NCBI RefSeq assembly: GCF_000757825.1
Contig: NZ_CP009451.1
Coordinates: 3,162,001 to 3,226,000 of the forward strand
Direction of reading: 5' to 3'
Length of the DNA stretch: 64,000 bases
Source of the DNA: Cedecea neteri
Lineage (GTDB): Bacteria; Pseudomonadota; Gammaproteobacteria; Enterobacterales; Enterobacteriaceae
Shown here: positions 43,615 through 64,000 of the stretch, piece by piece
Position numbering within the stretch: position 1 is the stretch's first letter
How the letters are laid out: every line of letters starts with the position of its first letter
The notes under the pieces: generated by a model
The model's database searches: none
What the model was told of the DNA's origin: nothing
What the model saw: the letters and a program-made list of their open reading frames with translations, nothing else
Program-made: the position numbers and the translations under genes

Positions 43615-43744
43615 TATTTAATCTTTTCTTCTGACTGATTTCTAAAAACCGGCGTAATCTAGCACAAAACTGACCTGGTGAGTCATGTGGCTGTTATTGC
43701 AGGTTTTATTACCAACTATCGGTGAAAGGGTTGAAAGGGAAAGT

Positions 43745-43781
43745 CCCCTCTCCCTGGAGGGAGAGGGGATGGGTGAGGGGG
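43745..43781. repeat. GC-rich dispersed inverted-repeat element (copy 5, short form)
   Basis: CCCCTCTCCCT-GG-AGGGAGAGGGG is a perfect 11-bp stem, followed by GGGTGAGGGG. This is a shortened copy lacking the opening CCCTCACC arm, 13 bases after the end of the ATPase gene at 43794. The 43615-43744 stretch holds no gene. Confidence 0.8.
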
Positions 43782-43793
43782 AAATGACGGAAA

Positions 43794-45296: not shown

Positions 45297-45432
45297 CAGC
45301 GTTTCCCTGTGGCAACATTTGTCTAAAGCATAGCTTTCCGCACAAATTGAGCATCAGGATCTTCCCATGTTTACCTCGTCGACCCGCCAAAGGGCTATGC
45401 TTGGCAGACTTCACACAAAACCAGGGAAAGCT

Positions 45433-47073: not shown

Positions 47074-47075
47074 CT

Positions 47076-47102
47076 AAAAAGGCTCCCGTTTGGGAGCCTT
47101 TA
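47076..47102. terminator. Bidirectional terminator between dihydroxyacetone kinase and ahr
   Basis: GGCTCCC-GTTT-GGGAGCC (stem 7 bp) is flanked by AAAAA on the left and TTT on the right, so both convergent transcripts get a hairpin with T residues. Confidence 0.9.
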
Positions 47103-47107
47103 TCACA

Positions 47108-48127
47108 TCAGAAATCTGACTTCAGCACCACGCGGTAGCGGGCTTTGCCGTCGCGCACGTGCTGGATGGCCTCGTTGATTTTCGACATCGGGTACAGCTC
47201 GATTTGCGGCTGAACCTTCGCGCGGCCCGCCAGCTTCATAAGCGAACGCAGCTCGTGCGGGGAGCCGGTTGCCGACCCGGAGATGCTACGGTCCCCGGCA
47301 ATCAGGGTGAAGGCCGGCACCTCGAACGGCTTCATCACCGCGCCAACCGTGTGGAAGTTGCCGCCCCAGGCCAGCGCCTTGAAGTACGGCATCCAGTCCA
47401 GATCGACATTGACGGTATTAATGATCAGATCGAACTGGCCCGCCAGCGCGGTTAACGCCTCTGGATCGCGGCTGTTCACCACTTTATCCGCGCCCATCGC
47501 CAGCACTTCTTCTTTTTTGGACGGGTTAGAGCTGAACGCCGTCACCTCGCAGCCCATGGCGTGCAGCAGCTTGATGGCGATATGCCCGAGGCCGCCGATG
47601 CCGATCACGCCCACGCGGCTGGTGGCGGTGATGTGGTGCATCAGCAGCGGTTTAAACACCGTGATGCCGCCGCACAGCAGCGGCCCGGCGGATTCAGTAT
47701 CAATCGACTCCGGCAGTGGGATCGCCCATTGCCAGTCCACGCGAATTTTATCGGCGAAGCCGCCGCGGTTCACGATGGTCGGCACGCTACCTTGCTGGCA
47801 GTTGATCTGGCTGCCGCTGATACAGGCGTCGCAGTGGCCGCAGCTTCTCGCCGTCCAGCCGATGCCCACGCGTTGCCCAACTTTCAGCCCTTTACTCTGT
47901 GCCGCCGAGCCCAGCGCATGCACGCGGCCAATCACCTCATGCCCGGCGACCAGCGGATACTGCGAGAACCCCCATTCGTTGTCGATCATCGACAGATCCG
48001 AATGGCAGATACCGCAGTATTCGACCTTAACTTCGACATCTTCCGGCAGCAGATCGCCCGCGTCGAAATCCTGAAGCTCCAGCTCCGCACCGGCCTTTGG
48101 CGCGGCATAACTTTTGATGACAGACAT
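47108..48127 (-). CDS. ahr: NADPH-dependent aldehyde reductase Ahr
   Basis: 339 residues, the E. coli Ahr (YjgB) length. Medium-chain dehydrogenase: catalytic zinc ligands in YCGICHSD and GHE, structural zinc Cys in [15 protein letters not shown], and the nucleotide fold GIGGLGHIA. Reduces a broad set of aldehydes. Located next to leuX as in E. coli. Confidence 0.96.
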
Positions 48128-48208
48128 TCGCTCTTCCTCTGTGTTGGCTCTGCAACCAGTTTAGAACATTGCGCGAGACTGGAACCTGGTGGAATGTGCC
48201 CTGACGCG

Positions 48209-49287: not shown

Positions 49288-49866
49288 TTAGCGACGAGTA
49301 AGTATCACGTTCAGCCATATCTCATCGCGATCGGGGCGAACATCGCGGGTGAGCCATTGCTCTGCTATCTCCAGATCGGGCAGATCCTTTAACAAGGCTG
49401 TTAGCCTTGCCTCGTTGATATCGGTAAAGCTGCGGCCATCCTTCTCGCGCTCGCTATCGCCATATTTAAACGAAAAGTACCAGATGCCACCGGGTTTTAA
49501 GGCCGCCGCCAGCTTCTGCATTACGCCGGGTAGCTCCGCATAAGGCAGATGCAGCAGCGAGGCGCAGCACCAGATGCCGCCGTATTCTTCACCGGCCTCT
49601 ACGTCAGCAAAAGTCATTTTCTTCACCGGCAGGCCGCTATGCTCCCGTGCCAGCGCCACCAGTTCAGAAGACGCATCGAAGGCATCGACCTGGTAGCCCA
49701 TCTGCGTGAAGGCCAGCGCGTCCCGCCCGGAGCCGCAACCTGCATCCAGCACTTTTGCGTGGGCAGGCAGGCGGCTGGTAAACGCTTCATACAGCGAGGA
49801 CATATCCACGTTTACCGTGCCTTCGAAGAACGTTTGGGCGTGAATCTGGTAATAACTGGAGTTCAT
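49288..49866 (-). CDS. Class I SAM-dependent methyltransferase, coupled to an HNH nuclease gene
   Basis: 192 residues from the ATG at 49866. The SAM-binding motif I is VLDAGCGSGRDALAF, followed by the acidic FDASSELVALA. There is no DNA-methylase catalytic motif (no D/NPPY or PCQ), so a small-molecule or protein substrate is likely. The start codon overlaps the HNH gene stop (TGATG), implying coupled translation. It lies just before leuX on the side opposite to the island. Nucleic-acid methylation is not supported. Confidence 0.85.
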   Translation of the reverse strand: MNSSYYQIHAQTFFEGTVNVDMSSLYEAFTSRLPAHAKVLDAGCGSGRDALAFTQMGYQVDAFDASSELVALAREHSGLPVKKMTFADVEAGEEYGGIWCCASLLHLPYAELPGVMQKLAAALKPGGIWYFSFKYGDSEREKDGRSFTDINEARLTALLKDLPDLEIAEQWLTRDVRPDRDEIWLNVILTRR

Positions 49867-50888
49867 CAGAGAATCAGTTCCTTCTGCACAGGCGGTTGCC
49901 AGATTTGCAGGCGGCAGGCATGCGCCTCGTTCCACCTGTCGTTTAAAAATGCTCTGCGTTTCGCCTCATTATTACCCGTCTGGTTGATGATTGCTTCATG
50001 CAGCGGCAGGCGGCTGTTAATGAAATATTCATTGCGGGCGTGGAGCCGGTACAGCAGATCGATGTGTGGCACTCTGGCAAACTTGCCTTGTTCACCCCGG
50101 TTGCAGCTCTGGCAGGCAAGAACAAGGTTCCAGACGCCGTTGAGGTTAGTCCCCGGCATACCATGCTGAGCAACCAGCGGCAGGAAATGATCGACATCCG
50201 CCAGCAGCGGGTGACCGGTTTCGAGGCTGACAGGGGCGTGGCAGTAGAAGCAATGGCCTTTCTGGTAGCAGTTCAGGCTGTTACGGCAGTTGGTTAGCGT
50301 GATGCGGCTGTTGGCTAGCTGGGTAAATAGCGTTTCCTGCTGTGGATCGAAATGCACGTCCAGCAGTTGCGCAGGCAGGCTCATCTCCCAGGCTTTCTCG
50401 ACCAGACGCCAGCGGGCATCGGTTTCATGAATCAGGCTGTGAAACTGCGATGTCTCCGTCAGCCGGTAAAAATCATCCGTCAGACGAATGCCCTGGCTGC
50501 TCCGTACCTCGTTGATAAAAAACTGCTTATCAATTTGGCTGCCGCTGACGTTATGAAAGGCGTCCAGCACCACTTTAAAGCCGTGTTTCACCGTCGCCTG
50601 AATCAGCTGGCTATGCGAAATCTCACCGTTGTTGTACTGGACGGCTGCGGTTAAAAATGGCCCCTGTTTGCTCATATTGAGCGTCTGCTTTGGCGCTAGC
50701 TTCAGATGCTCGCAGATATGTTTGCTGAACGGCACAGCTAAATCTTCCAGCATCACCAGCGTGTTATTGCGCTCGACGTCGTACAGCGCATGGGCCAGCG
50801 CAAACTTGTAGGTGGCGAAGTTGTTCCCAAAGAGGATCACGCCCCGCCAGTAGTTTTCCAGCGCAGGATCGACCTGGTAAAAACGCAT
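49866..50888 (-). CDS. HNH endonuclease domain protein
   Basis: 340 residues. The C-terminal HNH domain has the zinc Cys pairs C213-C216 (CFYC) and C259-C262 (CQSC), with D233-H234 (DVDHFLP) and N254 forming the metal-binding His-Me-finger core. The first 190 residues are helical and not recognised. It starts at 50888 (AGGA upstream), and its stop overlaps the methyltransferase start. A nuclease with a bound methyltransferase at a tRNA-adjacent site is suggestive of a defence unit, but no target is known. No promoter was traced in the 266-base gap to leuX. Confidence 0.85.
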   Translation of the reverse strand: MRFYQVDPALENYWRGVILFGNNFATYKFALAHALYDVERNNTLVMLEDLAVPFSKHICEHLKLAPKQTLNMSKQGPFLTAAVQYNNGEISHSQLIQATVKHGFKVVLDAFHNVSGSQIDKQFFINEVRSSQGIRLTDDFYRLTETSQFHSLIHETDARWRLVEKAWEMSLPAQLLDVHFDPQQETLFTQLANSRITLTNCRNSLNCYQKGHCFYCHAPVSLETGHPLLADVDHFLPLVAQHGMPGTNLNGVWNLVLACQSCNRGEQGKFARVPHIDLLYRLHARNEYFINSRLPLHEAIINQTGNNEAKRRAFLNDRWNEAHACRLQIWQPPVQKELIL

Positions 50889-51098
50889 ACGTTTTCCTGG
50901 TTACGGTTTGCTAGTGCAAAGGGAGATGGGTACGAGAACCCGTAACTGGATCACATAACAAATGAAAGATGATGTAAACCGTAGAGCGATAGATTTACTG
51001 AATATGTGAAGTGAGGGAGGGCTTGTCAGGTGGGCAGGGCAGAGCAAAGGGGAACGCTGAAAAATTCAGCACTTAACGAGACTTACGTGCAGCACTGC

Positions 51099-51126
51099 TT
51101 GCATGGCGGCCAGCGACAGGTATAAT
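51099..51126 (+). promoter_or_regulatory. Promoter of tRNA-Leu leuX
   Basis: TTGCAT (51099-51104), a 16-base spacer and a perfect TATAAT (51121-51126) lie 28 bases before the mature tRNA. Confidence 0.8.
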
Positions 51127-51154
51127 CCACAACGTTTCCGCATACCCCTTCAGT

Positions 51155-51239
51155 GCCGAAGTGGCGAAATCGGTAGACGCAGTTGATTCAAAATCAACCG
51201 TAGAGATACGTGCCGGTTCGAGTCCGGCCTTCGGCACCA
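51155..51239 (+). tRNA. leuX: tRNA-Leu (anticodon CAA)
   Basis: 85 bases including the encoded CCA. It folds as a class II tRNA: acceptor GCCGAAG/CTTCGGC, D-arm, anticodon loop TTCAAAA (CAA reads UUG codons), the extra arm TAGAGATACG and T-arm GTTCGAGTC. It matches E. coli leuX at all but one visible base. leuX is a frequent island integration site, and an integrase gene follows in the same direction. Confidence 0.99.
51218..51239 (+). other. Inferred attachment site (attL) at the 3' end of leuX
   Basis: P4-type integrases target the 3' end of tRNA genes, and a decayed P4-type integrase gene begins 187 bases downstream. The tRNA 3' end (T-arm, acceptor and CCA) is intact, as expected after recombination restores it. 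The matching repeat (attR) would be beyond the right edge. Confidence 0.6.
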
Positions 51240-51352
51240 TAAGTATGTAAATGGACCTCAACTGAGGTCTTTTTTTATGCCTGAAATCCAGTATTTACCC
51301 ATCATTCCCGCTATATTAACTCTCTCAAGGTCAACCGACTTCAACGTACATC

Positions 51353-51412
51353 TACCAACAGATGTTGGTATAGATGATGGTATTTCCGGTTCGATAATGC
51401 TTGTACCAACAG
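51353..51412. promoter_or_regulatory. Inverted and repeated TACCAACA sites before the integrase gene
   Basis: TACCAACA-GA-TGTTGGTA (51353-51370) is a perfect 8-bp-arm dyad, and a third half TACCAACAG is at 51404-51412, 14 bases before the start. Such sites in the integrase promoter are typical arm-type or self-repression sites of P4-type elements. Function inferred. The rest of 51240-51425 has no gene. Confidence 0.55.
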
Positions 51413-51425
51413 GGAGGGGATAAGC

Positions 51426-52670
51426 ATGGCGTTAACAGATATCAAGGTCAGAACAGCCAAGCCAACGGGTAAGCAATATAAGCTGACCGATGGTAGTGGT
51501 ATGCATCTGCTTGTTCATCCTAATGGTTCTAAGTATTGGCGTTTGCAGTACCGTTTTGCAGGTAAGCAAAAGATGTTGGCTTTAGGGGTATATCCTGAAG
51601 TTTCTCTTGCAGATGCCAGAGCTCGTCGTGATGAGGCTCGTAAGTTGTTGGCAAACGGCATCGATCCGGGAGACAAAAAGAAAAGCGATAAGGTTGAGCA
51701 AGAAGACGCTCGCACTTTTGAACAGCTTGCAGTTGAGTGGCATGCAACGAATAAAAAGTGGTCGGAAGAACATAGCCGACGAGTACTGAAAAGTCTGGAG
51801 GACAATCTTTTTCCAGCTATTGGCAAACGTAATATTGCCGAACTTAAAACACGGGATTTGTTAGCCCCAATAAAAGCCGTAGAGATGTCTGGACGTCTTG
51901 AGGTTGCATCACGACTGCAACAGCGAACTACCGTAATTATGCGTTATGCCGTGCAGAGCGGTTTACTTGACTACAATCCCGCGCAGGAGATGGTTGGTGC
52001 CGTTGTTTCAAGTAACCAGCAGCATCGACCTGCATTGGAGTTGAAGCGAACTCCTGAACTCCTTCAGCGTATTGATAGTTATACCGGTAGGCCTTTGACT
52101 CGTCTTGCCGTTGAACTAACGCTCCTTGTCTTCATTCGTTCCAGTGAACTGCGTTTTGCTCGTTGGTCAGAGATTGATTTTGAAACATCTATGTGAACGA
52201 TTTCAGCTGAGCGAGAAGCGATTGAAGGGGTAAAGCATTCACATCGAGGTTCGAAGATGCGGACTCCACATCTTGTTCCTTTGTCGCAGCAGGCTCTAGA
52301 CATTCTGGAAAAGATTAAAAGCATTAGTGAGAATCGAGAACTGATTTTTGTAGGTGATCATGATCCGCGTAAACCCATGAGTGAGAATACGGTGAATAAG
52401 GTTTTGCGAGTGATGGGCTATGACTCAAAAACGGAAGTTTGTGGGCATGGTTTTAGGACGATTGCATGTAGTTCATTGATAGAATCGGGATTGTGGTCGA
52501 GGGATGCAGTAGAGCGGCAGATGAGCCATATGGAGCGTAACTCAGTGCGTGCGGCTTATATTCATAAGGCTGAACATCTGGATGAGCGCAGGCTGATGCT
52601 GCAGTGGTGGGCTGATTTTTTGGATATGAATAGGGAAAGGGAAGTTAGTCCTTATGACTTTGGCAAGTAA
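51426..52670 (+). pseudogene. P4-type tyrosine integrase, interrupted by an in-frame TGA
   Basis: The reading frame runs from the ATG at 51426 (AGGGAGGGG upstream) to the TAA at 52668-52670, 414 codons, with one stop at 52194-52196. The N-terminal half (MALTDIKVRTAKPTGKQYK, DUF4102 arm-binding domain) and the core-binding domain are intact. After the stop the same frame continues into TISAEREAIEGVKH, the HGFRTI box (catalytic H and R) and the C-terminal AAYIHKAEHLDERR (catalytic Y). Relatives have Trp where the TGA is, so a TGG to TGA change explains it. The catalytic first R (FIRSSELRFARW) is before the stop. Without read-through the C-terminal catalytic half is lost. Confidence 0.92.
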
Positions 52671-52772
52671 TCTAATTCCTGATGCTTGCTATGTTCGAAT
52701 TTGAAAAGCCAGCTTGAACTATAACCCATACTTTTTTATAACTGTATTATTCTGGCGACTCAGAGGTGCACT

Positions 52773-53006
52773 ATGAAAACTTTCGATACCCAACTTGCGA
52801 TGAGCATTGTATCGCACTCAACGGGAGGTTTTAGTTATGACACTCTTGCTAGGGCCTTGATTTCTTTAAATAAAGATGAAAATTCTGATGTCCTTCTTGA
52901 GTCATGTCGAAATTTTTGTCTCTCTCTTGAGGAAAAAGGTATTCTGAGGCGATGCCAAAAATGTGCTCATTCTCAAGATGAGTATTTCGAGTATATTTCT
53001 CACTAA
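52773..53006 (+). CDS. Small protein, possible winged-helix, of unknown function
   Basis: 77 residues, not recognised. AGAGGTG lies 6-12 bases before the ATG. GGFSYDTLARALISL, followed by SLEEKGILRRC, has the spacing of a winged helix (recognition and wing), and a C-terminal CQKC pair could bind metal. It is between the broken integrase and dpdC, followed by a perfect inverted repeat, which makes a regulator of the cluster plausible. That role is inferred. Confidence 0.6.
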   Translation: MKTFDTQLAMSIVSHSTGGFSYDTLARALISLNKDENSDVLLESCRNFCLSLEEKGILRRCQKCAHSQDEYFEYISH

Positions 53007-53040
53007 CATCAGTCCCTGAAAATTTTTTCAGGGACTGATG
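53007..53040. repeat. Perfect 16-bp inverted repeat between the 77-residue gene and dpdC
   Basis: CATCAGTCCCTGAAAA (53007-53022) and TTTTCAGGGACTGATG (53025-53040) match exactly with a 2-base gap. It begins directly after the stop of the small gene. The A/T blocks meet at the top of the stem, so it resembles a terminator only on one reading; it could equally be an operator. Confidence 0.9.
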
Positions 53041-53106
53041 ACTCCGTTCTTGTCATCCCCTTTTTTCTCCTGTAGCTTGTGTAACACGATTCTGGGGGGG
53101 GCGATT

Positions 53107-54063
53107 GTGAGCAACATCAACTTAATAACAACATGTACAAACGGCAAACACTACGGTAGTAGGGATATATTGAGTCTGAGTCAATTTTCATCAGGCCGAA
53201 TCCCTTCAGATGTGCTCATGAATTCTTGGTGCAATGCTCTGAATGAAGCCATTTCTACATCTGTAACTATATGTACAGAGGATCTTTATAAAGGTGGGCA
53301 CTGGGCGACGGCTAAAGCTATTTTAGATAATTATCCTATTGATTTATGGGTTCTTTCTGCTGGTTTAGGTCTCCTTCACCATAAAGATAATGTTGTACCT
53401 TATAAAGCGACCTTTGCTGTTGGATATGACGAATCAATACCATTGTATTCTCAAGAATATGTAGGGAAAAGTTTTCATAGAACATGGTGGAAAGAAATAA
53501 CCAATAGATCTATTTTTAAATCTAAGCATCCTACATCTATTGTAGAGTTAATGAAAAAAAGAAAAAAAGACTATTATATTATTTGTGGTTCTCCAGATTA
53601 TATTAATGCAATTGAACTGGATATCATTAATGGTCTTGAGTATCTGGTTGATGCAAAAAAACAACTGATTGTTATAACTTCCAAAAAAATTAATAGTAGG
53701 CTGAATGCATACCTTTTCAAAACCAACCAAAATATAGCTCAGTGGTTGAGATGCAATATGCTTATGCTTAATATCAGCGTGGCAAAATACATTGTGAAAG
53801 AATTTACGTCAAAACAACTCAATGATTTAAATGAGTTATCTCAGAAGTTAATAGAAGAATTCAAGGCGTTACCTGAGCGTGAAGTGAAAAAAGGAATTCG
53901 TCGTAGCCCGGAGGAAGTTAAGTCTTTCATTTTAAAACTTATGGAACAAAATCCTGGTATCAGTGCAACACATGCGTTGCGTGAATTTCGTGACTCGGGA
54001 AATTCATTTGAGGAAAAACGTTTTCGGGCTGAGTTTAAGGTCCTGAGAGAGGCTAAACCTTAA
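53107..54063 (+). CDS. dpdC: DpdC-like protein of the Dpd 7-deazaguanine DNA modification system
   Basis: 318 residues from the GTG at 53107; an in-frame ATG at 53038 would add 23 residues but lies inside the inverted repeat. A run of eight G (53094-53101) sits 5-12 bases upstream and doubles as the ribosome site. The N-terminal domain has LWVLSAGLGLLHHKDNVVPYKATF near residue 80, the motif of the YaaA/DUF328-related DUF6884 group to which DpdC belongs. The last ~60 residues (RRSPEEVKSF...) resemble a helical DNA-binding domain. In Salmonella Montevideo DpdC converts preQ0 in DNA to 2'-deoxy-7-amido-7-deazaguanosine. It precedes dpdA by 52 bases. It is much more AT-rich than dpdA. Confidence 0.75.
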   Translation: MSNINLITTCTNGKHYGSRDILSLSQFSSGRIPSDVLMNSWCNALNEAISTSVTICTEDLYKGGHWATAKAILDNYPIDLWVLSAGLGLLHHKDNVVPYKATFAVGYDESIPLYSQEYVGKSFHRTWWKEITNRSIFKSKHPTSIVELMKKRKKDYYIICGSPDYINAIELDIINGLEYLVDAKKQLIVITSKKINSRLNAYLFKTNQNIAQWLRCNMLMLNISVAKYIVKEFTSKQLNDLNELSQKLIEEFKALPEREVKKGIRRSPEEVKSFILKLMEQNPGISATHALREFRDSGNSFEEKRFRAEFKVLREAKP

Positions 54064-54115
54064 TGCTACTTGCCTGGGTTTCATGGTAGAATCCCCAGCT
54101 TTTTGAGGCTTTGCA

Positions 54116-55387
54116 GTGGCGTCACAGGAGAGTAAGTTGTCGAAGCTAAAGTATTTTTTCCCTGATAGTCAGGATTTTATCGATCCCAGTTTCGACTTCC
54201 TCCGCGAAACACGTAACGAACATCGCGTGCGCCAACGTGACGATCATTATCCGCATGAGGTTTTTCCTCATCCTTACGATGGTATGCTGGTTTCTAAAGC
54301 TGTAGTCGATGGTCTTGGCGGTGGCGAGAGCAAATATACCCGTGCCCAGCGTTTGCGTTACTTCCGTAATGGAATGAAGCATTTTTTCCGCCTGCCGGAA
54401 AATATGGAAACTATGGGTGATTGCGGAGCCTTCACCTATGTTAATCAGGATGTCCCGCCATACCGTGTGGAAGAGGTGATTGAGTTCTACGAAACTTCTC
54501 GCTTTAACCATGGCGTTTCTCTCGATCATATCGTTTTTGGCTATGAGAAACCTGGTGAGGTATTCAGTGGCGAAGTGTTGGCTGAATGTCGTCGACGCCA
54601 GGATATTACGCTGACCCTGGCTCAAGAGTTTTTGAACAAGTCTCAAAAGTCCTGTTTCACTGCCTTTGGCGTTGCACATGGATGGAGCAAAACCTCCTAC
54701 CGTCAGTCTGTAGAGGCCTTGCTGGCCATGGGATACAAAAATATCACCATGGGGGGGATGGTGCCGTTGAAAACGGCGCAGATCCTTGAGACTCTCGAAG
54801 AGATTAAACCTCTGCTGAAAAGTGATACACGTGTTCACTTGCTTGGTATTGCCCGTCCAGAGAGTTTCGCCGACTTTATCAAGTTTGGTGTGACCAGTAT
54901 TGACTCGACTACACCGCTTCAGCAGGCCTTCAAAGATCGAAAAAATAACTACCATATGCCCGATGGCCCGGCCTATACCGCTGTGCGTGTCCCTCAGTTT
55001 GATGCGAATCCAAGTTTGAGTCGCAAAATAAAATCTGGCGTGATTGATCAGGATATTGCTCGGCATCTGGAAAAGGATGCCATGAATGCCCTGTTCGAAT
55101 ACGATAAAGGGGCTTTGTCCCTTGAGAAAACTCTTGGGGCAGTACTGGCTTATGAACGCCTGCATTCAGGTGAAAAAGAGGCCGATAAAATCCGTGCGGA
55201 TTATGAACGCACACTGGGTGAACGTCCCTGGAAACAGTGCCAATGCAATATTTGCCAGGCTATCGGTATCAACGTCATCATTTTCCGTGGAGCAGAACGC
55301 AACCGTCGCCGCGGTTTCCATAATATTCAGGTGTTGTACAACCGTTTACAGCACACATTGTCATTACGCTCAGAGGAACTGTCATGA
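54116..55387 (+). CDS. dpdA: DpdA, tRNA-guanine-transglycosylase-like DNA 7-deazaguanine insertase
   Basis: 423 residues from a GTG at 54116; a TTG at 54137 with the better ribosome site AGGAG would give 416. TGT-fold: D102 in MGDCGAFTYV corresponds to the first catalytic Asp region of TGT (DSGGFQ), and SLDHIVFG carries the second, nucleophilic Asp. The C-terminal zinc motif is CQCNIC with a later His. It exchanges guanine for preQ0 in DNA, as TGT does in tRNA. It overlaps dpdB by ATGA. The only enzyme in the window that defines the system. Confidence 0.93.
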   Translation: MASQESKLSKLKYFFPDSQDFIDPSFDFLRETRNEHRVRQRDDHYPHEVFPHPYDGMLVSKAVVDGLGGGESKYTRAQRLRYFRNGMKHFFRLPENMETMGDCGAFTYVNQDVPPYRVEEVIEFYETSRFNHGVSLDHIVFGYEKPGEVFSGEVLAECRRRQDITLTLAQEFLNKSQKSCFTAFGVAHGWSKTSYRQSVEALLAMGYKNITMGGMVPLKTAQILETLEEIKPLLKSDTRVHLLGIARPESFADFIKFGVTSIDSTTPLQQAFKDRKNNYHMPDGPAYTAVRVPQFDANPSLSRKIKSGVIDQDIARHLEKDAMNALFEYDKGALSLEKTLGAVLAYERLHSGEKEADKIRADYERTLGERPWKQCQCNICQAIGINVIIFRGAERNRRRGFHNIQVLYNRLQHTLSLRSEELS

Positions 55388-56511
55388 GTGAGTATCGTGT
55401 TCCCGCCCTGCGAATCCGACAGGGTGAGGAGAGGCAACTCTATAGCCTTGCGATAGAAGGTAAACAAATTAGCAAAATTGCAGCAATTTCACGTATCCGT
55501 CGTGGCGAAGAGAGTCTGGTTGGTTATCAGCGTCCAGAAGTACGTAACCATATTCGCGAAATTCAGCGCTACATTGAGAGCGCAAATCCGATGATACCAA
55601 ACCCGGTGATTATCGCTTTTGATAAGCGTGTGCGTTTTGAGCCGCTTACAGATAATGGCGATATGGGACATCTGATAATACCTTTCTCCGAAGATAAGGA
55701 TTTTGAGAAGCCAGGTTTTATTGTGGATGGTCAACAACGTACCGCTGCTTTGCGGGATGCGGAAATCGACTCATTTATGATGCCGGTCTCCGCTTTCATT
55801 GCTAATGACGCGGAAGAACAGCGTGAACAGTTCATGCTGGTTAACTCCACAAAACCGTTGCCAAAAACGTTGTTATACGAACTGGCACCGCATACCCACG
55901 GTCGTTTGCCATCCGATCTGCAAATGCGCAAGTTTCCTTCACTGCTAACTCAACGACTGAACTTCGGCGAAGGTCCACTCGCAGGGCGCATCAAAACGGC
56001 GACCAATCCTGATGGGGTTATTGCTGACAACTCGATGATCAAAATGATCGATGCTAGTCTTCGTGAGGGAGCATTGTATCGCTTCCGTGACCCTGCGACA
56101 GGGTTGGGGGATGAAGGGAAGATGGTGAAACTGCTGAATAACTTCTGGTCGGCGGTGGAAACTGTGTTTACTGATGACTGGGATAAAAAGCCTCGTTATT
56201 CCCGCTTGTTACATGGCGTTGGTATTCTTGCGCTTGGCAGCTTGATGGATGAAATCGATCAGGTTCATCAGGACTATAAAGGTGAACCAGGCTGGACTGA
56301 GATCCCTTCCTATACTCGTTTTGTCGAAGAGTTAAACCGTATTAAGCCGCTTTGTGCATGGAGTAGTGGCGTGTGGAACTTCGGCACAGATGTTGATGGT
56401 CAGCCTATTGTTCGTAAATGGAATGAACTGCAAAATCTTTCAAAAGATATATCTTTGGTTACTGATTATCTGGTAACCAATTATATTAAAGTAGCTAACG
56501 CTGACATTTAA
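55384..56511 (+). CDS. dpdB: DpdB, DGQHR-domain protein of the Dpd system
   Basis: 375 residues with the family motif at D115-G-Q-Q-R119 (FIVDGQQRTAAL), a DGQHR variant with Q in place of H. Related to ParB/Srx-fold and DndB-like proteins. In Salmonella Montevideo DpdA and DpdB together suffice for preQ0 insertion in DNA; DpdB probably uses ATP. It starts inside the dpdA stop (ATGA) and ends before a terminator, closing the modification module. Confidence 0.92.
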   Translation: MSEYRVPALRIRQGEERQLYSLAIEGKQISKIAAISRIRRGEESLVGYQRPEVRNHIREIQRYIESANPMIPNPVIIAFDKRVRFEPLTDNGDMGHLIIPFSEDKDFEKPGFIVDGQQRTAALRDAEIDSFMMPVSAFIANDAEEQREQFMLVNSTKPLPKTLLYELAPHTHGRLPSDLQMRKFPSLLTQRLNFGEGPLAGRIKTATNPDGVIADNSMIKMIDASLREGALYRFRDPATGLGDEGKMVKLLNNFWSAVETVFTDDWDKKPRYSRLLHGVGILALGSLMDEIDQVHQDYKGEPGWTEIPSYTRFVEELNRIKPLCAWSSGVWNFGTDVDGQPIVRKWNELQNLSKDISLVTDYLVTNYIKVANADI

Positions 56512-56527
56512 GATATAAGTAAAATCT

Positions 56528-56563
56528 AAAGCCTCATATTGTTAAATGGAGGCTTTATTTTTT
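56528..56563 (+). terminator. Intrinsic terminator after dpdB
   Basis: AAAGCCTC and GAGGCTTT form an 8-bp stem with a 13-base loop, followed by ATTTTTT. It separates dpdCAB from dpdEFGH. Confidence 0.88.
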
Positions 56564-56663
56564 AATGAAATAATTTCATGGTGGAATTAGTGGGGGTGTA
56601 TATAAGAATTGTTTAACTTTATTTAATATGATGGCATTAACTGATTGATTTAAATATCTAAAA

Positions 56664-56683
56664 TTTGTGATCGAGATCACCTA
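56664..56683. promoter_or_regulatory. CRP-like site upstream of dpdE
   Basis: TTTGTGATCGAGATCACCTA holds TGTGA-N6-TCACC, with an inner GTGATC/GATCAC symmetry close to the CRP ideal. It is about 130 bases before the dpdE ATG, in the 301-base gap 56512-56812, which otherwise has only the dpdB terminator and AT-rich sequence. Confidence 0.65.
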
Positions 56684-56812
56684 CCAATTTACGTAGTGGC
56701 CCGGCCTCTCCTTCCAGCAGATTTGCTTCATTGGCTCATTCGCCGTATATTCATTATAGATTTATTCGTTTTTTGCGAATTACTTTCACTTCCTGACTAC
56801 TTAAAAATCATA

Positions 56813-59800
56813 ATGACTACACATACTGGCGCGTTTTCTGAAGGTGACCTAGTAATATCGCCATTATTTGACGGTATTGCTAAAATTATTAGTATTCTCT
56901 CTACTGAGCGTGCAGAGATAGCCTGGTTCTACTCCCCTTTAGAAGAGGAGGTTAACCATCAGGAGGTGGAGGTTCGCGCGCTTACGGCAGCGACGCTATA
57001 TGAGGAAAGCACCGTTTATTTTCGCTCTCCCGATAGCGGCATCTGGTCCAGAGGCCGTTATGGCGGGCCTCGGCCCGGCAATAAGCACCTACTGATTATC
57101 CGTACGGGAGATAATGCGGTCGTTGATATGGCGGAGATGTACTACCCCAATTATGGGCAGGGGCAGGCAATGAATCCGGCTCATTTTCTGGCGGCACGTT
57201 CAAATGACGCCCCCTATTTCTACCCGCTAAGGGAGCGATTTATTAGCGCCTGGATTAATCAACGGGCGGCCTGTCGTTCAATGTCTTCTCTCATAAGCAG
57301 TCGCGTCGAGATAGAGCCGCACCAAATTGCGGTTGTCAGGCGGATTTTGCAGGATCCGAATCCTAAATATCTGCTGGCCGATGAAGTCGGACTGGGCAAA
57401 ACTATCGAAGCCGGGTTTGTAATCCGTGAACACGTGCTGGAGTGCAAACTTGATGCTCGGGTGCTGGTCGTTGTTCCTGGAGCCCTGCACGGGCAGTGGA
57501 TGCAGGAGTTGATCGACCGCTTTGCGCTGCAGGATGTGATGCGGGGTGGACGACATCATCAGATTCGTATGTGCCAGCCGGATGAGATAGACGCTCCGGA
57601 ACTGCTCGACTGGTGTCCAACGCTGGTCGTGATCGACGAAGCGCATCAGTTAGCCGCGCTCGCATGGTCCAGAGATGCTGGGGAGCGCACGCAATATAAT
57701 GCGATGGCGGCATTGTGCCATCAGGCGCACATCGTGCTGATTCTGTCCGGGACGCCGATGCACGGTAACGAGCGTAACTTCCTGGCGATGCTGCACTGTA
57801 TCAGCCCACAGGCATGGCAACTCAACCAACTGGGCATCGAGAAGTTTATACAGCGTGTGTCCGAACGTGAGCGATTAGGTGGGATCTATAGCGCCCTGAC
57901 GCCAGAAACGCCGAACATGATGCTGGAAGAAAGTCTGAATGAATTGAGTGATTTGTTCGCGGACGATGCTCGCTTGCAGGAGTTAATCGACGCGTTACGC
58001 CCACACGTGGATTTCTTTGCGACTGACGAAAGTGAAGAACGAACGGAAGGCATCCTTGCACTTCGCTACTGGATCGGGGAGCACTATCGCCTGTTTCACC
58101 GCCTGCTGCGCAATCGTCGAGAAGATCCTTCGCTCATCTGCCTGTTCCCAGGGCTGGATGGACTGGAAAAAGTCACCTGGCCGGTCAGCGCCGAGCAGAT
58201 CACGCTGGATGAAATCCTTGAAGCCTACCGCGAGGCTTCTCTGCGCAACCCTGAACGTTATCGGTATCAGAATGCGGATACGTTGACTGACTGGGTGGAT
58301 GCACTGTTCCTCAGTCCGCTGACGCTATCTCGTCGCGCCAAAGAGTGCCAGACCATTGGTGCCGGTAGCGACGAGGAATTCCGTTTCCTCGAACAAATTA
58401 TTGAAGTGGCTCAGCAGGAGCAACGCGTAAAAGATACAGTATTAATGGCGTGCTTAACCCACTGGTTTGAAACCAATCCAGAGGGTAAAGCGGTGATCTT
58501 CTGCGGTGAAAATCAGGAAGCGGCACACTTGGCCACCAAACTGGCTATCCAAGCACCCTGGCAGGTCGTCCGTCATACGCCTGAGGTGCTTATGCAAACG
58601 GAATTGCTGGATGGCACTTGGCAGGTGCTGATTTGCGATAAACGGGGTGAGGATGGACTGAACCTGCACGGCAAGCGTCGATTGGCCATTCACTACAGCC
58701 TAAGCCGCGACTTCAACCGGTTTGAGCAGCGATTGGGGCGTTTTAACCGTTACTGCGGTAACCTTCACGTTAAACCTGTGAAAAGTCTGGTGCTATTGCC
58801 GGAGCGTGAAGGTCTGACTGCCGACTGGTTGACGCTCCTGGATGAGGGGACCGGTCTGTTCAAGCGCAGCGTTGCCAGCCTGCAGTTTGTTCTGACGGAA
58901 CAACTCGATGCCGTCTGGCGAGACTACGTCAGCCAGGGGCCTGAGGTATTCCGTGAGAAAATCGCACATCTGGCTGGTGAAGACGGCTTTGTTAATCAGG
59001 AACGTAAGCGGGTATTGGCGCAGGAGAACCTGCTGTCGATGGAGCACGAGGTGATTGCGGCTCGTGAGTTCTCCGAGCAACTGGCGGGTAAAGAAGAAGA
59101 TGCCGATGCTCAGGCTGCCGATATGCTGAGGTGGATACGCAACGCGCTGGGCTTCAAACGTGAGAAATATGAAGAGGGTGGTTTCCGCCTGTGCTTTGAA
59201 CGCGGACAGAATCAGCGCCAGACGCTGGTCGATGTGAAAACCTTCATCGACAACTGCCTGATCGGGCTAGACTTTTCGGAAGGATATCCGCCATCGACAG
59301 CGATGATGAGCCTGTCGCGCACGGAGGCGAGCAGCCAAAAGCTGGTGTATCCATTACGCTATGGTCAGCCCTTCGTGGAAACGGTCTGGCAGCTAATGCA
59401 GGCCGATCCACGAGGCGCCACGATGGCGCTGCTGCGGGTGTTGACCTCGCTCCCTCTAAAGCAGCCGCGCACCTATTTCCATTTCCAGTGGTTAACTGAA
59501 GCGAAGCACGACGGGGAGGATTCTCTGACGGCGCAGCGCTGTGGCGATGAGCGCTTCAGCCCGGTGGTGAATCAATTCTGGCTGGACGACAGCGGGAACT
59601 GCGCTGAACCACAGATTGTCGTTTCCCTGCTGGATAAGCCATACGATGAGGACGGCAACGTGTTGTTTCAGGATATCAACCTGCGTGAAGAGGTGTGGAC
59701 GCAAATGCCGGACTGGTTTGAACCGTTCAACTGGAAGGCCACCGTCCTTGCCGTGAAAGAGCAGGCCTACCAGCAACTGCAGCAATCCTACGGCGATCAA

Positions 59801-59863
59801 TCCGTGCGCCATCAGTTGCTGGCCATGAAAGCGATAGTGCTGTGTACCCGGGACATGTTGTAA
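56813..59863 (+). CDS. dpdE: DpdE, SNF2/HepA-type helicase of the Dpd restriction module
   Basis: 1016 residues from the ATG at 56813; 39 codons of in-frame extension to 56696 are AT-rich and lie over the promoter region. The ribosome site is weak. Superfamily 2 helicase of SNF2/RapA type: Walker A GLGKT with K196 (LADEVGLGKTIEAG), DEAH at 275-278, LSGTPMHGNERNF (motif III), and QRLGRFNRY (motif VI). In Salmonella Montevideo dpdE is needed for the restriction-like phenotype, not for the modification. The first gene of the second operon, 12 bases before dpdF. Confidence 0.9.
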   Translation: MTTHTGAFSEGDLVISPLFDGIAKIISILSTERAEIAWFYSPLEEEVNHQEVEVRALTAATLYEESTVYFRSPDSGIWSRGRYGGPRPGNKHLLIIRTGDNAVVDMAEMYYPNYGQGQAMNPAHFLAARSNDAPYFYPLRERFISAWINQRAACRSMSSLISSRVEIEPHQIAVVRRILQDPNPKYLLADEVGLGKTIEAGFVIREHVLECKLDARVLVVVPGALHGQWMQELIDRFALQDVMRGGRHHQIRMCQPDEIDAPELLDWCPTLVVIDEAHQLAALAWSRDAGERTQYNAMAALCHQAHIVLILSGTPMHGNERNFLAMLHCISPQAWQLNQLGIEKFIQRVSERERLGGIYSALTPETPNMMLEESLNELSDLFADDARLQELIDALRPHVDFFATDESEERTEGILALRYWIGEHYRLFHRLLRNRREDPSLICLFPGLDGLEKVTWPVSAEQITLDEILEAYREASLRNPERYRYQNADTLTDWVDALFLSPLTLSRRAKECQTIGAGSDEEFRFLEQIIEVAQQEQRVKDTVLMACLTHWFETNPEGKAVIFCGENQEAAHLATKLAIQAPWQVVRHTPEVLMQTELLDGTWQVLICDKRGEDGLNLHGKRRLAIHYSLSRDFNRFEQRLGRFNRYCGNLHVKPVKSLVLLPEREGLTADWLTLLDEGTGLFKRSVASLQFVLTEQLDAVWRDYVSQGPEVFREKIAHLAGEDGFVNQERKRVLAQENLLSMEHEVIAAREFSEQLAGKEEDADAQAADMLRWIRNALGFKREKYEEGGFRLCFERGQNQRQTLVDVKTFIDNCLIGLDFSEGYPPSTAMMSLSRTEASSQKLVYPLRYGQPFVETVWQLMQADPRGATMALLRVLTSLPLKQPRTYFHFQWLTEAKHDGEDSLTAQRCGDERFSPVVNQFWLDDSGNCAEPQIVVSLLDKPYDEDGNVLFQDINLREEVWTQMPDWFEPFNWKATVLAVKEQAYQQLQQSYGDQSVRHQLLAMKAIVLCTRDML

Positions 59864-59875
59864 ACGGACGCATAA

Positions 59876-62326
59876 ATGGATACTCAGTGGCTACAACTCC
59901 GTGCGGTGCTGAACGGCGAGCACGATGAAAAAGACGGGATTAGCGGGCAATTTTTTACCCGCCTCCTGTATTGTCTGGACGATGATGAGGCTGGAGAGAG
60001 CGACCGCCTGCATGCGTTCTATGATGCTTTGCAGTGCGCTCGGGTGCATGGTCTGGTTCCGTTAATGCTTCCGTATCGGCATCTAACGGAAAATGCCGCA
60101 CTGAGCCGTTTTGGCCTGTGCCGGCATCGGGATTATCCCGGCGAACTCCTGCTGGAGCGGGGGGATGAAGCGCTGGATGCTAATTTGCTCGCGGTATGGC
60201 AGGGAGAAAAGCGCCGTTTTCTTGAGTCTCCCCCCCTGGATACTATTCTCCCCGCCGTACTCAATGATCCGCGTTACACGCACTACACCTCCGTCGGGCA
60301 GCAGCAGGCGGTGCGTACGGTACTGACCAGCCCGCAGGATAAGACGCTGTTGGTGAATCTGCCTACCGGGGCGGGGAAAACCTTTGTTATTCATGCCCAG
60401 ATGCTGACATCACCCCGTCGGCACCTGACGCTGGTGATTGTCCCCACCGTGGCGTTGGCGATTGAACAAGCGTTGCGGGCGAAAGAGGTGATGCAGCGGG
60501 CAGGTCAGGATCACGGCGGGAGTTACGTCTGGCATAGCGGGCTTGGCCTCGAGGCGCGCAGCGAAATGAAGGTGCGACTGGCCGCGGGCGAGCAGCGGGT
60601 GCTGTTTTGCTCCCCGGAAGCGGCAACCGGCGGGCTGCTGCTGCTGCTCTTTTCACTGGCCCAGCGCAGCCTGCTTGGCGCGGTGATGGTGGACGAAGCG
60701 CACCTGATCGATCAGTGGGGGGCGGAATTCCGCCCAGAGTTCCAGCTGCTGGCGCCGCTGGTTAAGTCGCTGATGGCGACCTCACCGGAACCCATTAAAG
60801 TGGTTCTGCTGTCTGCGACTTTCAGCCAAAGTACGCAAGATACATTAAAGGCGTTGTTTGCGAGTTCACGTGCGGACGCCGTTATTGATATTAACGGTAG
60901 TTTTTTGCGCCCGGAGCCCGCCTGGTTTGTCAGCGAAGCCGCGGACTATGACGATTATCTCGTTCAGGTGGAAGCGGCCATCGCTCGTCTGCCGGCACCG
61001 ATGATTATTTACACCACTGAAGTGGAGCAGGCGAAGTTCTGGCATCAGTACCTGCGTGGACGTGGCTACCGCCGCTGCGGTTTATTCCATGGCGCCACCC
61101 CAATGCACGAACGCGAAGGGCTGATTCATGCTTGGCGTGACGATGCGCTGGATATCATGATCGCTACGTCGGCCTTCGGCGTAGGGATGGACAAAAGCAA
61201 TGTCCGTACAGTGCTGCATGTGGCGGTGCCGGAGAACTTCGATCGCCTCTATCAAGAGAGTGGTCGTGGCGGGCGTGATGGCAACGCTTCTGTTGCCCAG
61301 ATTATTTTCCACCATCAGCAGTTGCGGGTGGCGCGTACCTTAAATCGCACCAAATTGATTGGTGCTGGTAAGGGTTTCTTGCGCTGGTCGAAAATGCACC
61401 AACTGCGTGAGCAGCACCGGCCAGGCCTCTTTACAGTGCCGTTATGGGCTAAGCACCACGATATCCGTATGGATTCACAGGGCAACGTCGACTGGAACCT
61501 GCGCACGCTGCTGTTGATGCAGCGAGCTGGGTTTATAGATATCGCCTATCCCGCGCCGGACTTGAGCACCATCAGTGCGGACGAGCGTGATGATGAGAAG
61601 GTACAGTCCTGGTTCGACAACTATTTCAGCCGTATTCAGGTTTCCGTTCGCCGTGACGGGCATCTCGACGAAACGCAGTGGCAAGCAAGTATTCAGGCGC
61701 ATCGTGCACATGAACTCTCCATGCGCCAGCGCGGCTTTATCGTGCTAAGCGAATGGTTAAACGATCTGTCTAACCCGCTGTGCCAGCAGTTAGCGGAGTT
61801 TTATACCCTTGACGGCTACGTTCCCGAGCAGGCGTGTGGCGGGTGCCCTGCATGTCGTGAGCAGGGGCGGCCACCGTTTACTCCAACGCTTGGGCGGGTC
61901 TCTCATGTTGTCGGCAATGCGCAGCATGCGGCAGTCGGAAATGATCGGCGCGTTCGCTATCAGACCAACCTGACCACCCGACTACTGTTGCGCCAGTGGG
62001 CTGACTGGATTGCGCGCCTGCTGGCCGGTCATCAGGTACAGGCGATCCGGGCAAGCCAGAGCACGCTGAGCCTGCTGAGCGCGGTGCTGCCCGCAGGGTT
62101 ACCGTTCTGGTGCTCGCTGGCGCCTGATGAAGAGAATAACAGCTGGCACGAACTGGTGCTGGTTCTTCCCGGGGAAGCGCTGCCTGAGCTGGATGTTTTT
62201 GCCAGCATCAACCGAATTATCGTCGCCCCTGAACAGCTGCAGGAGCCGGGCTATCGTGGTCGTCGCTGGTGGGAAGTCGATCAGGGTGCCGTGACGTTAG
62301 AACAATTTCAGAGGAACATTTTCTAG
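59876..62326 (+). CDS. dpdF: DpdF, RecQ-like DEAH helicase
   Basis: 816 residues. Walker A NLPTGAGKTFV with K168, DEAH in MVDEAHLIDQWG, LLSATF (motif III), and QESGRGGRDG (motif VI) as in RecQ. Four Cys cluster in EQACGGCPACREQG near 655, a candidate zinc site like the RecQ zinc-binding domain. ~130 residues precede the helicase core. Part of the dpd restriction side by order; its precise action is not established. It ends TAG, overlapping the GTG of dpdG. Confidence 0.9.
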   Translation: MDTQWLQLRAVLNGEHDEKDGISGQFFTRLLYCLDDDEAGESDRLHAFYDALQCARVHGLVPLMLPYRHLTENAALSRFGLCRHRDYPGELLLERGDEALDANLLAVWQGEKRRFLESPPLDTILPAVLNDPRYTHYTSVGQQQAVRTVLTSPQDKTLLVNLPTGAGKTFVIHAQMLTSPRRHLTLVIVPTVALAIEQALRAKEVMQRAGQDHGGSYVWHSGLGLEARSEMKVRLAAGEQRVLFCSPEAATGGLLLLLFSLAQRSLLGAVMVDEAHLIDQWGAEFRPEFQLLAPLVKSLMATSPEPIKVVLLSATFSQSTQDTLKALFASSRADAVIDINGSFLRPEPAWFVSEAADYDDYLVQVEAAIARLPAPMIIYTTEVEQAKFWHQYLRGRGYRRCGLFHGATPMHEREGLIHAWRDDALDIMIATSAFGVGMDKSNVRTVLHVAVPENFDRLYQESGRGGRDGNASVAQIIFHHQQLRVARTLNRTKLIGAGKGFLRWSKMHQLREQHRPGLFTVPLWAKHHDIRMDSQGNVDWNLRTLLLMQRAGFIDIAYPAPDLSTISADERDDEKVQSWFDNYFSRIQVSVRRDGHLDETQWQASIQAHRAHELSMRQRGFIVLSEWLNDLSNPLCQQLAEFYTLDGYVPEQACGGCPACREQGRPPFTPTLGRVSHVVGNAQHAAVGNDRRVRYQTNLTTRLLLRQWADWIARLLAGHQVQAIRASQSTLSLLSAVLPAGLPFWCSLAPDEENNSWHELVLVLPGEALPELDVFASINRIIVAPEQLQEPGYRGRRWWEVDQGAVTLEQFQRNIF

Positions 62327-63225
62327 TGGCAATCACAAACAACACCGGTGCAGGAAGTCAGATCCGTCTGCTGTGTATGATCGATCGTGTGTTGAACAGA
62401 CGAATGGGGGAGCCGATCGCTAAGACGGCATTGGTCGATCTGCTAAGGCCGGAGATGCTACCTGGGTCCACCGGGGCCAGAAAAAGGTTGCCGGCTGAAA
62501 TTTCGTTCTGGGCTAAAGAGGGGCTGTGGAAGGTGGAAAAAGCCGGCCTTAGCCAGCAGTCGCCGCTGTGCAGCGAACGCGACCTGCCCAGTCGTGTGCT
62601 GCGCACCTTGATCAGCTCCGTAGAAACGGAACCGCTGCTGAGTGGAACCCGCGGCCAGCCATTTTTAATGAGCGTGACCTCAGTGCTGGCGCAGGATAAA
62701 TATACCCTGCGCGGTAATGAGCCATTGACCAAAGATGCTGTACCGACGGCTGTTGGGCCAATGCTCCATAATCAAATGGCCGGCGTGGGTTGGCGCTATC
62801 TGAATTCCACTAACGAAGCGGAGCCGTTCCTCGACTACGCCTACTTCCTCGGTTTTACCGAACCGTATCTGGATGGCTGGGTGATGGACCCTACGCGTGC
62901 GATTGAAGGTGTGCTGGACAACCTACAACTGGCCTCGGCCACGCCAATTCAGCAGTTCCTTGATCGGCTGGCGGAGCATTTACCGATGCTGGACCGAGGA
63001 AAATACCGTGAGCTCGTGGAGCCGATGATTATCGCCGAAAACTGGCAGCCGCTGGAGGGGCGTATTATTAGCGCTTCGCTGAGTCAGGCGTTACTGCGCC
63101 TTGAACTGACCATGCAGTTAACTTTCAACACCCTATCTGATGATCCTTATGACTGGATACTGCAGGACACGAACGGCTCTCAGCGCCGTATTAGTACCGT
63201 TAGCGTCGGGGAGGCACGAAAATGA
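62326..63225 (+). CDS. dpdG: DpdG, protein of the Dpd restriction module
   Basis: 299 residues from the GTG at 62326, which shares one base with the dpdF stop (TAGTG); AGAGG is about 12 bases upstream. The first part (IRLLCMIDRVLNRR and AKTALVDLLRPEML) looks like a winged helix, the remainder is alpha-helical; no catalytic motif was seen. Named from its place between dpdF and dpdH; in Salmonella Montevideo dpdG contributes to restriction. Confidence 0.8.
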   Translation: MAITNNTGAGSQIRLLCMIDRVLNRRMGEPIAKTALVDLLRPEMLPGSTGARKRLPAEISFWAKEGLWKVEKAGLSQQSPLCSERDLPSRVLRTLISSVETEPLLSGTRGQPFLMSVTSVLAQDKYTLRGNEPLTKDAVPTAVGPMLHNQMAGVGWRYLNSTNEAEPFLDYAYFLGFTEPYLDGWVMDPTRAIEGVLDNLQLASATPIQQFLDRLAEHLPMLDRGKYRELVEPMIIAENWQPLEGRIISASLSQALLRLELTMQLTFNTLSDDPYDWILQDTNGSQRRISTVSVGEARK

Positions 63226-64000
63226 AGATGATGGAATACTGGCCCTCCTCGCAAAATATTATCGACTGTATCCGCACCGAGGCGGAAGAGTTGGCGGAAC
63301 ATACGCTGCTGGCCGTGCACCAGCCGGTTCGCCTGCTGCGCATGGATAAAGACGGCAACAGGCAAGGGTACGGTAAGGAAGAGGATCTGCTAAACCATTT
63401 CCTCGTCACCCCGCGCCCCATCCCTATTGTAGGCAAGGCCGGCGTCGGCAAGTCGCATATTATTCGCTGGCTCGACGCCAAGTTGCGCCTGCGTCCGGAA
63501 TATAAAAATAACCAATGGCATATTGTGCGTATTCCCAAAAGCGCCAGCCTGCGCGAAGTGCTGACGCTGATGCTCAAAGGGTTGGAAGGGCAGATTTTTG
63601 ATGAAGCCCGGGAAGACATCAATAAAGTATCGGAAAAGCGCACGCCTCGCGAGATTGCCGAGTGGCTGCTGATGCTGATGGGCCAGGAGTTGCGTAACCT
63701 CCACGAGCGCAACAAGCTGGATATGGAAGCACTCAAAAAGCGGATGCAAGGCTGTTCGCCAGAGCAGCAGCATATGATGAAGCCGGAAGCGGTCCGCCTG
63801 CAAAAAATCCACGTTCATGCGGAAGATAAAGCGCTGGCGACGCTGATCAACGACGCCTATTTCAAACAGTTTTTGCTAAAAGACGAGCACTGCCTGTTCC
63901 GTCTGGCCAGCCGTCTGACTAATGGCGCAAACAGCAACGATCTGGACGAAGGGGAGCAGCAGCTTCAGGCCAGTGATCTAGACTTCAGCTTTAATATCAA
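63222..64000 (+). CDS. dpdH: DpdH, P-loop ATPase of the Dpd system (3' end outside window)
   Basis: The frame opens at the ATG at 63222, overlapping the dpdG stop by ATGA, and stays open to the last base, 259 codons. Walker A is GKAGVGKS with K77 (IPIVGKAGVGKSHIIRWL). Further features (Walker B, sensors) are beyond the window or not obvious. It fits DpdH, the ATPase of the cluster; dpdI-K and dpdD are not reached. Start chosen by the overlap and the ribosome site GGAGGCACGA. Confidence 0.82.
   Translation, partial: MKMMEYWPSSQNIIDCIRTEAEELAEHTLLAVHQPVRLLRMDKDGNRQGYGKEEDLLNHFLVTPRPIPIVGKAGVGKSHIIRWLDAKLRLRPEYKNNQWHIVRIPKSASLREVLTLMLKGLEGQIFDEAREDINKVSEKRTPREIAEWLLMLMGQELRNLHERNKLDMEALKKRMQGCSPEQQHMMKPEAVRLQKIHVHAEDKALATLINDAYFKQFLLKDEHCLFRLASRLTNGANSNDLDEGEQQLQASDLDFSFNI

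Follow-up and report, generated by a model that had tools for sequence, protein, structure and literature searches.

A dpd island of Salmonella enterica Montevideo was reportedly described by Thiaville in 2016. In this study, we analyzed a 64,000-base stretch of the Cedecea neteri genome (the window; bases 3162001-3226000 of a single-contig 4.88-Mb genome), whose right 11 kb carry, on the + strand throughout, dpdC, dpdA, dpdB, dpdE, dpdF, dpdG and the initial 259 codons of dpdH, as parts of a Dpd DNA modification and restriction island. The Montevideo island is also described in PMC11888242 and PMC6159554. In the described systems, DpdA and DpdB insert 7-cyano-7-deazaguanine (preQ0) into DNA, DpdC makes 2'-deoxy-7-amido-7-deazaguanosine (dADG), and the other eight genes, when moved, lowered transformation efficiency. 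According to GATOR-GC, dpdA-C are strongly syntenic and the presence of dpdD-K varies, and a review gives leuX as hotspot 37, with Dpd at 2% in one table. Our comparison with the Montevideo island, which covered site, gene set and DpdA, revealed the same tRNA-Leu-adjacent site, the dpd genes A-K and a DpdA (7UI4) close to that of the window.

Other defense systems share single features with this island. In Dnd phosphorothioation, the modification module DndABCDE is commonly decoupled from the restriction module DndFGH (PMC10853773). Dpd resembles Dnd in this module decoupling, and DpdB matches the DndB family, whereas the chemistry and the restriction genes differ. DISARM and Druantia contain helicases of the YprA family, to which DpdJ also belongs (PMC12458937), and weak DruE and DrmA matches were obtained with PADLOC. 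DISARM, Druantia and ARMADA differ from Dpd, however, in that the present cluster has no methyltransferase and, according to the literature, its mark is made by base exchange.

We interpret the locus as a complete, modular Dpd island at leuX, in which a marking module, dpdCAB, stands beside an exchangeable restriction cassette that would read the absence of the same mark; we put the probability of this reading at roughly 0.85. Sequence comparisons support completeness, module borders, separate histories and exchange; the chemistry is taken from the literature, and that all cassettes read a shared mark is what we infer. The different histories of the island parts are new as far as the literature searched reaches. 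Cassette exchange and an inverted class were not found described there; the founding papers and the main review lay outside its coverage and may note them.

In the proposed mechanism, host FolE, QueE and QueC, together with host and island QueD, would make preQ0. DpdA with DpdB would swap chosen DNA guanines for preQ0, and DpdC would turn the inserted base into the amide (dADG), thereby marking self DNA. The cassette DpdE-F-G-H-I-J-K-D, comprising the helicases E, F and J, the ATPase H and the phospholipase-D-like K, would act on unmarked DNA. The genes dpdCAB, often with leuX and an integrase at their left, form a marking module common to several genera, and the eight-gene cassette behind it would be exchangeable; other islands carry far-diverged alleles of this cassette, in either orientation.

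Gene content of the Dpd island

The initial annotation had placed a Dpd cluster at leuX and had recognized dpdC, dpdA, dpdB, dpdE, dpdF, dpdG and dpdH by motif and order. ARAGORN located a tRNA-Leu (CAA) gene, leuX, to the left of dpdC (51155..51239, +), where it serves as integration site at the left end of the island, and the family models of all seven proteins matched (NCBIfam; PADLOC for DpdC). dpdC (53107..54063, +), assigned to the amide-forming step on dPreQ0 from the literature, scored 513 bits in PADLOC, whose model agrees with the GTG start; an NCBIfam profile search gave no match for DpdC. The DNA-guanine transglycosylase gene dpdA (54116..55387, +; PDB 7UI4) reached 576.8 bits against NF041059 (cut-off 200), and its true start may be a TTG near 54137. 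It is followed by dpdB (55384..56511, +), encoding the DGQHR/DndB-like partner of DpdA (NF041060, 476.6 bits, cut-off 300). The restriction cassette begins with dpdE (56813..59863, +; SNF2-like helicase, NF041062, 971.3 bits, cut-off 500) and continues with dpdF (59876..62326, +; RecQ-like helicase, NF041063, 787.6 bits, cut-off 550) and dpdG (62326..63225, +; NF041064, 261.4 bits, cut-off 80), whose product is one of 17 DpdG proteins found. The gene of the AAA-type ATPase DpdH (63222..64000 in the window, +) runs on to 66380; the 259 amino acids inside the window scored 235.1 bits against NF041065, below the cut-off of 450 and covering profile positions 1-235 of 1014, whereas the complete protein reached 674.5 bits.

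dpdD and dpdI-K had not been seen in the initial annotation, which had pointed to the sequence right of position 64000. They are indeed absent from the window, and all four follow directly to its right, together with the preQ0 gene queD, on the adjoining sequence L003 (window position = L003 position + 63000; window position 64000 is L003 base 1000). In window numbering, these are dpdI (66367-67101; NF041066), dpdJ (67098-71615; NF041067), dpdK (71612-72157; NF041068) and dpdD (72157-74328; NF041061), each on the + strand, above the NCBIfam cut-off and detected by PADLOC. The restriction set DpdD to DpdK is complete, with E, F and G inside the window, H across its edge and I, J, K and D to the right; DpdB and DpdC adjoin DpdA, and a preQ0 source is present. 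The match of the open reading frames to Dpd families is confirmed and far beyond chance, and the cluster represents a complete Dpd island, of which both the kind and the site are known.

DpdA belongs to a family distinct from ordinary tRNA-guanine transglycosylase (TGT), as judged by family scores. Its 576.8 bits against the DpdA equivalog NF041059 compare with 26.7 bits against the tRNA-Tgt equivalog, far from the curated Tgt cut-off of 306.75, and the solved DpdA 7UI4, which is that of Salmonella Montevideo (PMC12137116), was matched at 898 bits over residues 5-422. One other TGT-like place was found in the genome, at 23% identity. Of 394 genomes of the order, 6, counting that of the window, had a DpdA relative (E ≤1e-50), two of them at ≥97% identity and the rest at 45-53%.

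The expectation that the host's queuosine route supplies preQ0 held in part. Single folE, queE and queC genes exceed the cut-off in the host genome (weak second queC-family and queE-family matches fall below it), and queD occurs twice, in the island (74364-74726, window numbering, −; 120 codons, beside dpdD) and in the host, the two products being 81% identical. With a queD of its own, the island would contribute to preQ0 supply alongside the host. One survey detected QueD in 78% of dpd islands (PMC11888242). To the right of queD lie an IS3-type transposase sequence with rve/HTH_21 domains and a HipA-family gene (L003 11949-12530 and 14989-16290).

Between leuX and dpdC, a tyrosine integrase gene (51426..52670, +) is interrupted by an in-frame TGA, leaving open pieces at 51426-52196 and 52257-52670, and the island integrase is probably inactive; an intact integrase of equal length (1245 bases) is annotated in Escherichia coli D2 and MB49. 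The broken integrase raises the alternative that the cluster is an immobile, functionless relic. A second copy of the 24-base leuX end (≤3 mismatches) was not found in the next 39 kb to the right of the window (L003 and L004; shorter or more distant repeats were not sought), which would also fit this alternative. However, none of the 11 dpd genes is interrupted, nor is queD, and the ten Dpd proteins for which NCBIfam has a model reach the cut-off at full length, which makes a decayed island improbable.

Histories of the marking module and the restriction cassette

We compared 15 sequences, including the window. A genome-contig search yielded nine loci, of which eight were used and L015 was left out; L016-L022 stand outside the per-gene tables, and the integrase values for Cedecea davisae and Pantoea ananatis were left out of this comparison, as the joined stretches of these two lack 1 and 3 bases, respectively, within the integrase left of dpdC. 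The cassette runs in the same direction as dpdCAB in seven of the 15 sequences (window, E. coli D2, 2273-PO3 and MB49, P. ananatis LMG 2665, a Leclercia metagenome-assembled genome and Serratia H1w) and is inverted right behind dpdB in another seven (Kluyvera georgiana, Enterobacter pulveris DSM 19144, C. davisae, Ca. Pantoea varia, E. coli LD91-1 and SCU-109, and the Enterobacter cloacae plasmid pPOL9A). The cassette of Tolumonas is located upstream, facing away. Inside the cassette, the order of the genes from E to D is conserved, with dpdI not found by search in Serratia and Tolumonas. tRNA-Leu(CAA) lies left of dpdC in eight of the 12 other islands scanned; it was not found in the stretches examined of Leclercia, pPOL9A, LD91-1 and SCU-109, the last two of which have an integrase fragment. 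pPOL9A, whose island is 99.1% identical to that of K. georgiana over 21.8 kb, was the one match to dpdCAB among 72,556 plasmid records, so plasmids are not the usual dpdCAB carrier in that record set.

The islands of E. coli D2, 2273-PO3, MB49 and LD91-1 resemble the window in having dpdC-A-B to the left and queD to the right of the same eight-gene cassette, with leuX and a full integrase in the first three. Identity between the window and D2 is a mosaic: 91.2% over leuX, integrase and dpdCAB (51053-56589), 72.0% over dpdE to dpdD (56797-74365) and 84.4% over queD. The dpdCAB genes share 92-98% DNA identity with their counterparts in the D2, Kluyvera and P. ananatis islands (87% for the region in E. 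pulveris), whereas the chromosomal genes left of leuX are just 76-78% identical to D2. dpdCAB was therefore shared between genera more recently than the chromosomes split; the cassette shows no recent sharing of this type. For comparison, the chromosomal flank at 43071-48192 is 86.6% identical to C. davisae DSM 4568, the nearest named genome among the loci compared. In local alignments, the proteins of the window cassette share 59-78% identity with those of the D2 kind and 21-51% with those of the MB49 and LD91-1 kinds.

The change in identity is abrupt and falls at the junction of modification module and restriction cassette (56512..56812, +). High identity to D2 and 2273-PO3 ends at 56589, 78 bases past the dpdB stop and shortly after a hairpin with a T-run at 56528-56563, which was recognized by eye and is absent from the pattern-scan results. 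When islands from different main classes are compared, similarity breaks off near the dpdB end, between 10 bases ahead of it and 3 bases past it.

Synonymous substitution rates (dS) are given for 12 chosen pairs, and trees were built from 13 islands; Tolumonas was left out of the dS table, and both Tolumonas and SCU-109, a near-copy of LD91-1, were left out of the border pairs and trees. Between the window and D2, dS was 0.14 for dpdC, 0.20 for dpdA and 0.38 for dpdB, compared with 1.56 to saturation for the cassette and 1.60 for the chromosomal gene ahr. The values for P. ananatis were 0.27, 0.26 and 0.09, with the cassette at 1.73 to saturation. Those for C. davisae were 0.05, 0.32 and 0.42, with ahr at 0.41; its inverted cassette encodes proteins just 22-52% identical to the window's, with synonymous sites at or near saturation. 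Even within E. coli, D2 and MB49 differ by 0.05, 0.13 and 0.34 in dpdC, dpdA and dpdB, and their cassette proteins are 18-39% identical (DpdA 98.1% vs. DpdE 33.6%). LD91-1 and Kluyvera are close in both parts (dpdCAB dS 0.17-0.27, cassette 0.09-0.29), a pattern that reads as whole-island transfer. The cassette of E. coli 2273-PO3 is itself a mosaic, with DpdJ, K and D 89-93% identical to D2 and E to I just 46-66%. At the DNA level (L006 23823-41370), its dpdJKD genes are 92.4% identical to the D2 kind and dpdE-I are far diverged.

These differences might arise without any exchange if dpdCAB were under far stronger constraint and shared one history with fast-evolving cassettes. DpdA and DpdB are conserved proteins (dN, nonsynonymous rate, 0.003-0.061 in the 12 pairs), and cassettes keep the same genes in the same order, both of which would fit such a constraint. 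Synonymous sites differ as sharply as the proteins, however, identity falls at a sharp border, and cassette orientation varies. Moreover, MB49 and Serratia, a single case among the 12 pairs, show the reverse pattern, with dpdCAB synonymous sites saturated (dpdAB DNA 78-79%) and the cassette closer, at dS 0.65-1.06. This argues against one history with different constraint, an explanation that we consider highly improbable.

The trees point the same way. In approximately unbiased (AU) tests, the dpdCAB alignment rejected the cassette tree both as DNA (p = 1.4e-45) and as protein (p = 0.0003), and the cassette protein alignment, which omits dpdI (none found in Serratia), rejected the dpdCAB DNA tree (p = 1.8e-7).

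queD, found in 12 of the 15 sequences and not in pPOL9A, Leclercia and Tolumonas within the stretches examined, tracks neither dpdCAB nor the cassette. In the 11 of 12 pairs having queD, protein identity is 91.7-96.7% and dS ranges from 0.55 to saturation, values that are rough at only 120 codons; in LD91-1/Kluyvera, it reaches 2.43 although the cassette is at 0.09-0.29. We considered queD as a recently shared right arm, matching dpdCAB on the left, and set this aside on the basis of these dS values.

Cassette classes and the mark they read

Window bases 53000-64000 matched 161 of 5426 E. coli genomes, and among the 20 matches listed, the match ended at query base 3547-3590, just past dpdB. 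Queries comprising dpdA, dpdB and the adjoining cassette end matched 159 of the 5426 genomes. At ≥80% query cover, 46 were of the D2 kind, 54 of the MB49 kind and 58 of the LD91-1 kind, and the whole 2273-PO3 cassette occurred in one genome, giving 46 + 54 + 58 + 1 = 159; that no genome was counted twice rests on the equal total and a single place per genome. Identity was ≥99% inside a class and mostly 90-95% across classes. Each dpdAB/cassette combination is stable in E. coli. E. coli ATCC 8739 is among the carriers of the LD91-1 kind.

Among the restriction proteins, DEAH or DEVH boxes are kept in DpdE, F and J, P-loops in DpdH and DpdJ, and H-x-K and G-S-x-N in DpdK. The AlphaFold model of DpdG, based on 15 sequences, had a mean pLDDT (predicted local distance difference test) of 52.8 and was moderately confident just at residues ~11-90, with a gap at 44-47; this part comprises helices and a two-stranded hairpin and looks winged-helix-like by eye. 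phmmer found no solved relative for DpdB, DpdC or DpdK (E up to 0.1) or for DpdG (E up to 1).

We regard it as an even bet that all cassette classes, at ~18-52% protein identity between the main classes, are interchangeable and read the same mark. Any dpdCAB mark would then spare DNA from every class, and exchange would renew the attack on phage counter-measures. Alternatively, the cassettes might read different DNA target sites, with a few DpdA, DpdB or DpdC residues shifting specificity and each pairing being separate. The tie of each E. coli cassette class to its own dpdAB allele would agree with this, as would the greater variation of DpdC than of DpdA and DpdB between classes (91-99% identical in four E. 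coli pairs). DpdA and DpdB are nonetheless 96-98% identical across the E. coli classes, and we consider separate specificities possible but doubtful.

Several points weigh against our reading of a modular island with an exchangeable cassette, in addition to the integrase stop. dpdCAB is diverged too in Ca. P. varia (78%), Serratia H1w (76%) and Leclercia (~70%, over a segment that extends into dpdE). Support in the dpdCAB tree is weak (43-100), and the dpdCAB DNA alignment also rejects the tree of its own proteins (AU p = 0.0007), pointing to recombination or noise inside the module. Judging from LD91-1 and Kluyvera, the island may usually move whole. Because every dpdAB allele goes with a single cassette allele in E. 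coli, no recent swap is indicated there. The window DpdK (L003 8612-9157) lacks the Asp of the HxK-x4-D motif; of 14 sequences, only those of MB49 and Serratia have this residue, which is five positions past the Lys. Elsewhere, therefore, the nuclease chemistry of DpdK may be altered, or the true nuclease may be another subunit. Finally, the chemistry, expression and restriction activity of this island and its function in this host are predictions.

Control region, flanking genes and implications

Upstream of dpdE, the junction contains a palindrome (56666-56680) resembling the site of the cAMP receptor protein (CRP). Four of the five islands that make up the cassette group of the window (the window itself, D2, 2273-PO3 and Leclercia) have a CRP-like palindrome 144-161 bases ahead of the dpdE start, with ≤1 mismatch at ten fixed positions, and the fifth, P. 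ananatis, has a 2-mismatch palindrome at -143. The 10 other sequences scanned have no such site at ≤1 mismatch; four of them have a 2-mismatch match. In shuffles of this control region of the window (order-1 Markov background), a site appeared at ≤1 mismatch in 0.4% and at ≤2 in 12%. Over the whole window, exact TGTGA-N6-TCAC sites number two, compared with 0.41 expected, and 14 of 100 shuffles reach two. These patterns suggest that the restriction operon of the window's cassette group may be under cAMP-CRP control.

Just left of leuX, two genes overlap. One (49866-50888, −) encodes a 340-amino acid protein that has an HNH nuclease match below threshold and weak matches of the PtuB-like kind; the other is a small S-adenosylmethionine (SAM) methyltransferase gene (49288-49935, −). 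The stretch 49418-51009 is 77% identical in E. pulveris DSM 19144. The two genes are a possible small defense pair.

The natural E. coli pairs among D2, MB49 and LD91-1, with DpdA and DpdB 96-98% identical and cassettes ~18-49% identical, provide a swap experiment made by nature. Should a single mark give protection from every cassette, recognition would lie in conserved cassette features; should it not, a few differences in DpdA, DpdB or DpdC would carry specificity. For the E. coli classes, the annotation "Dpd" alone leaves a strain's restriction machine unspecified.

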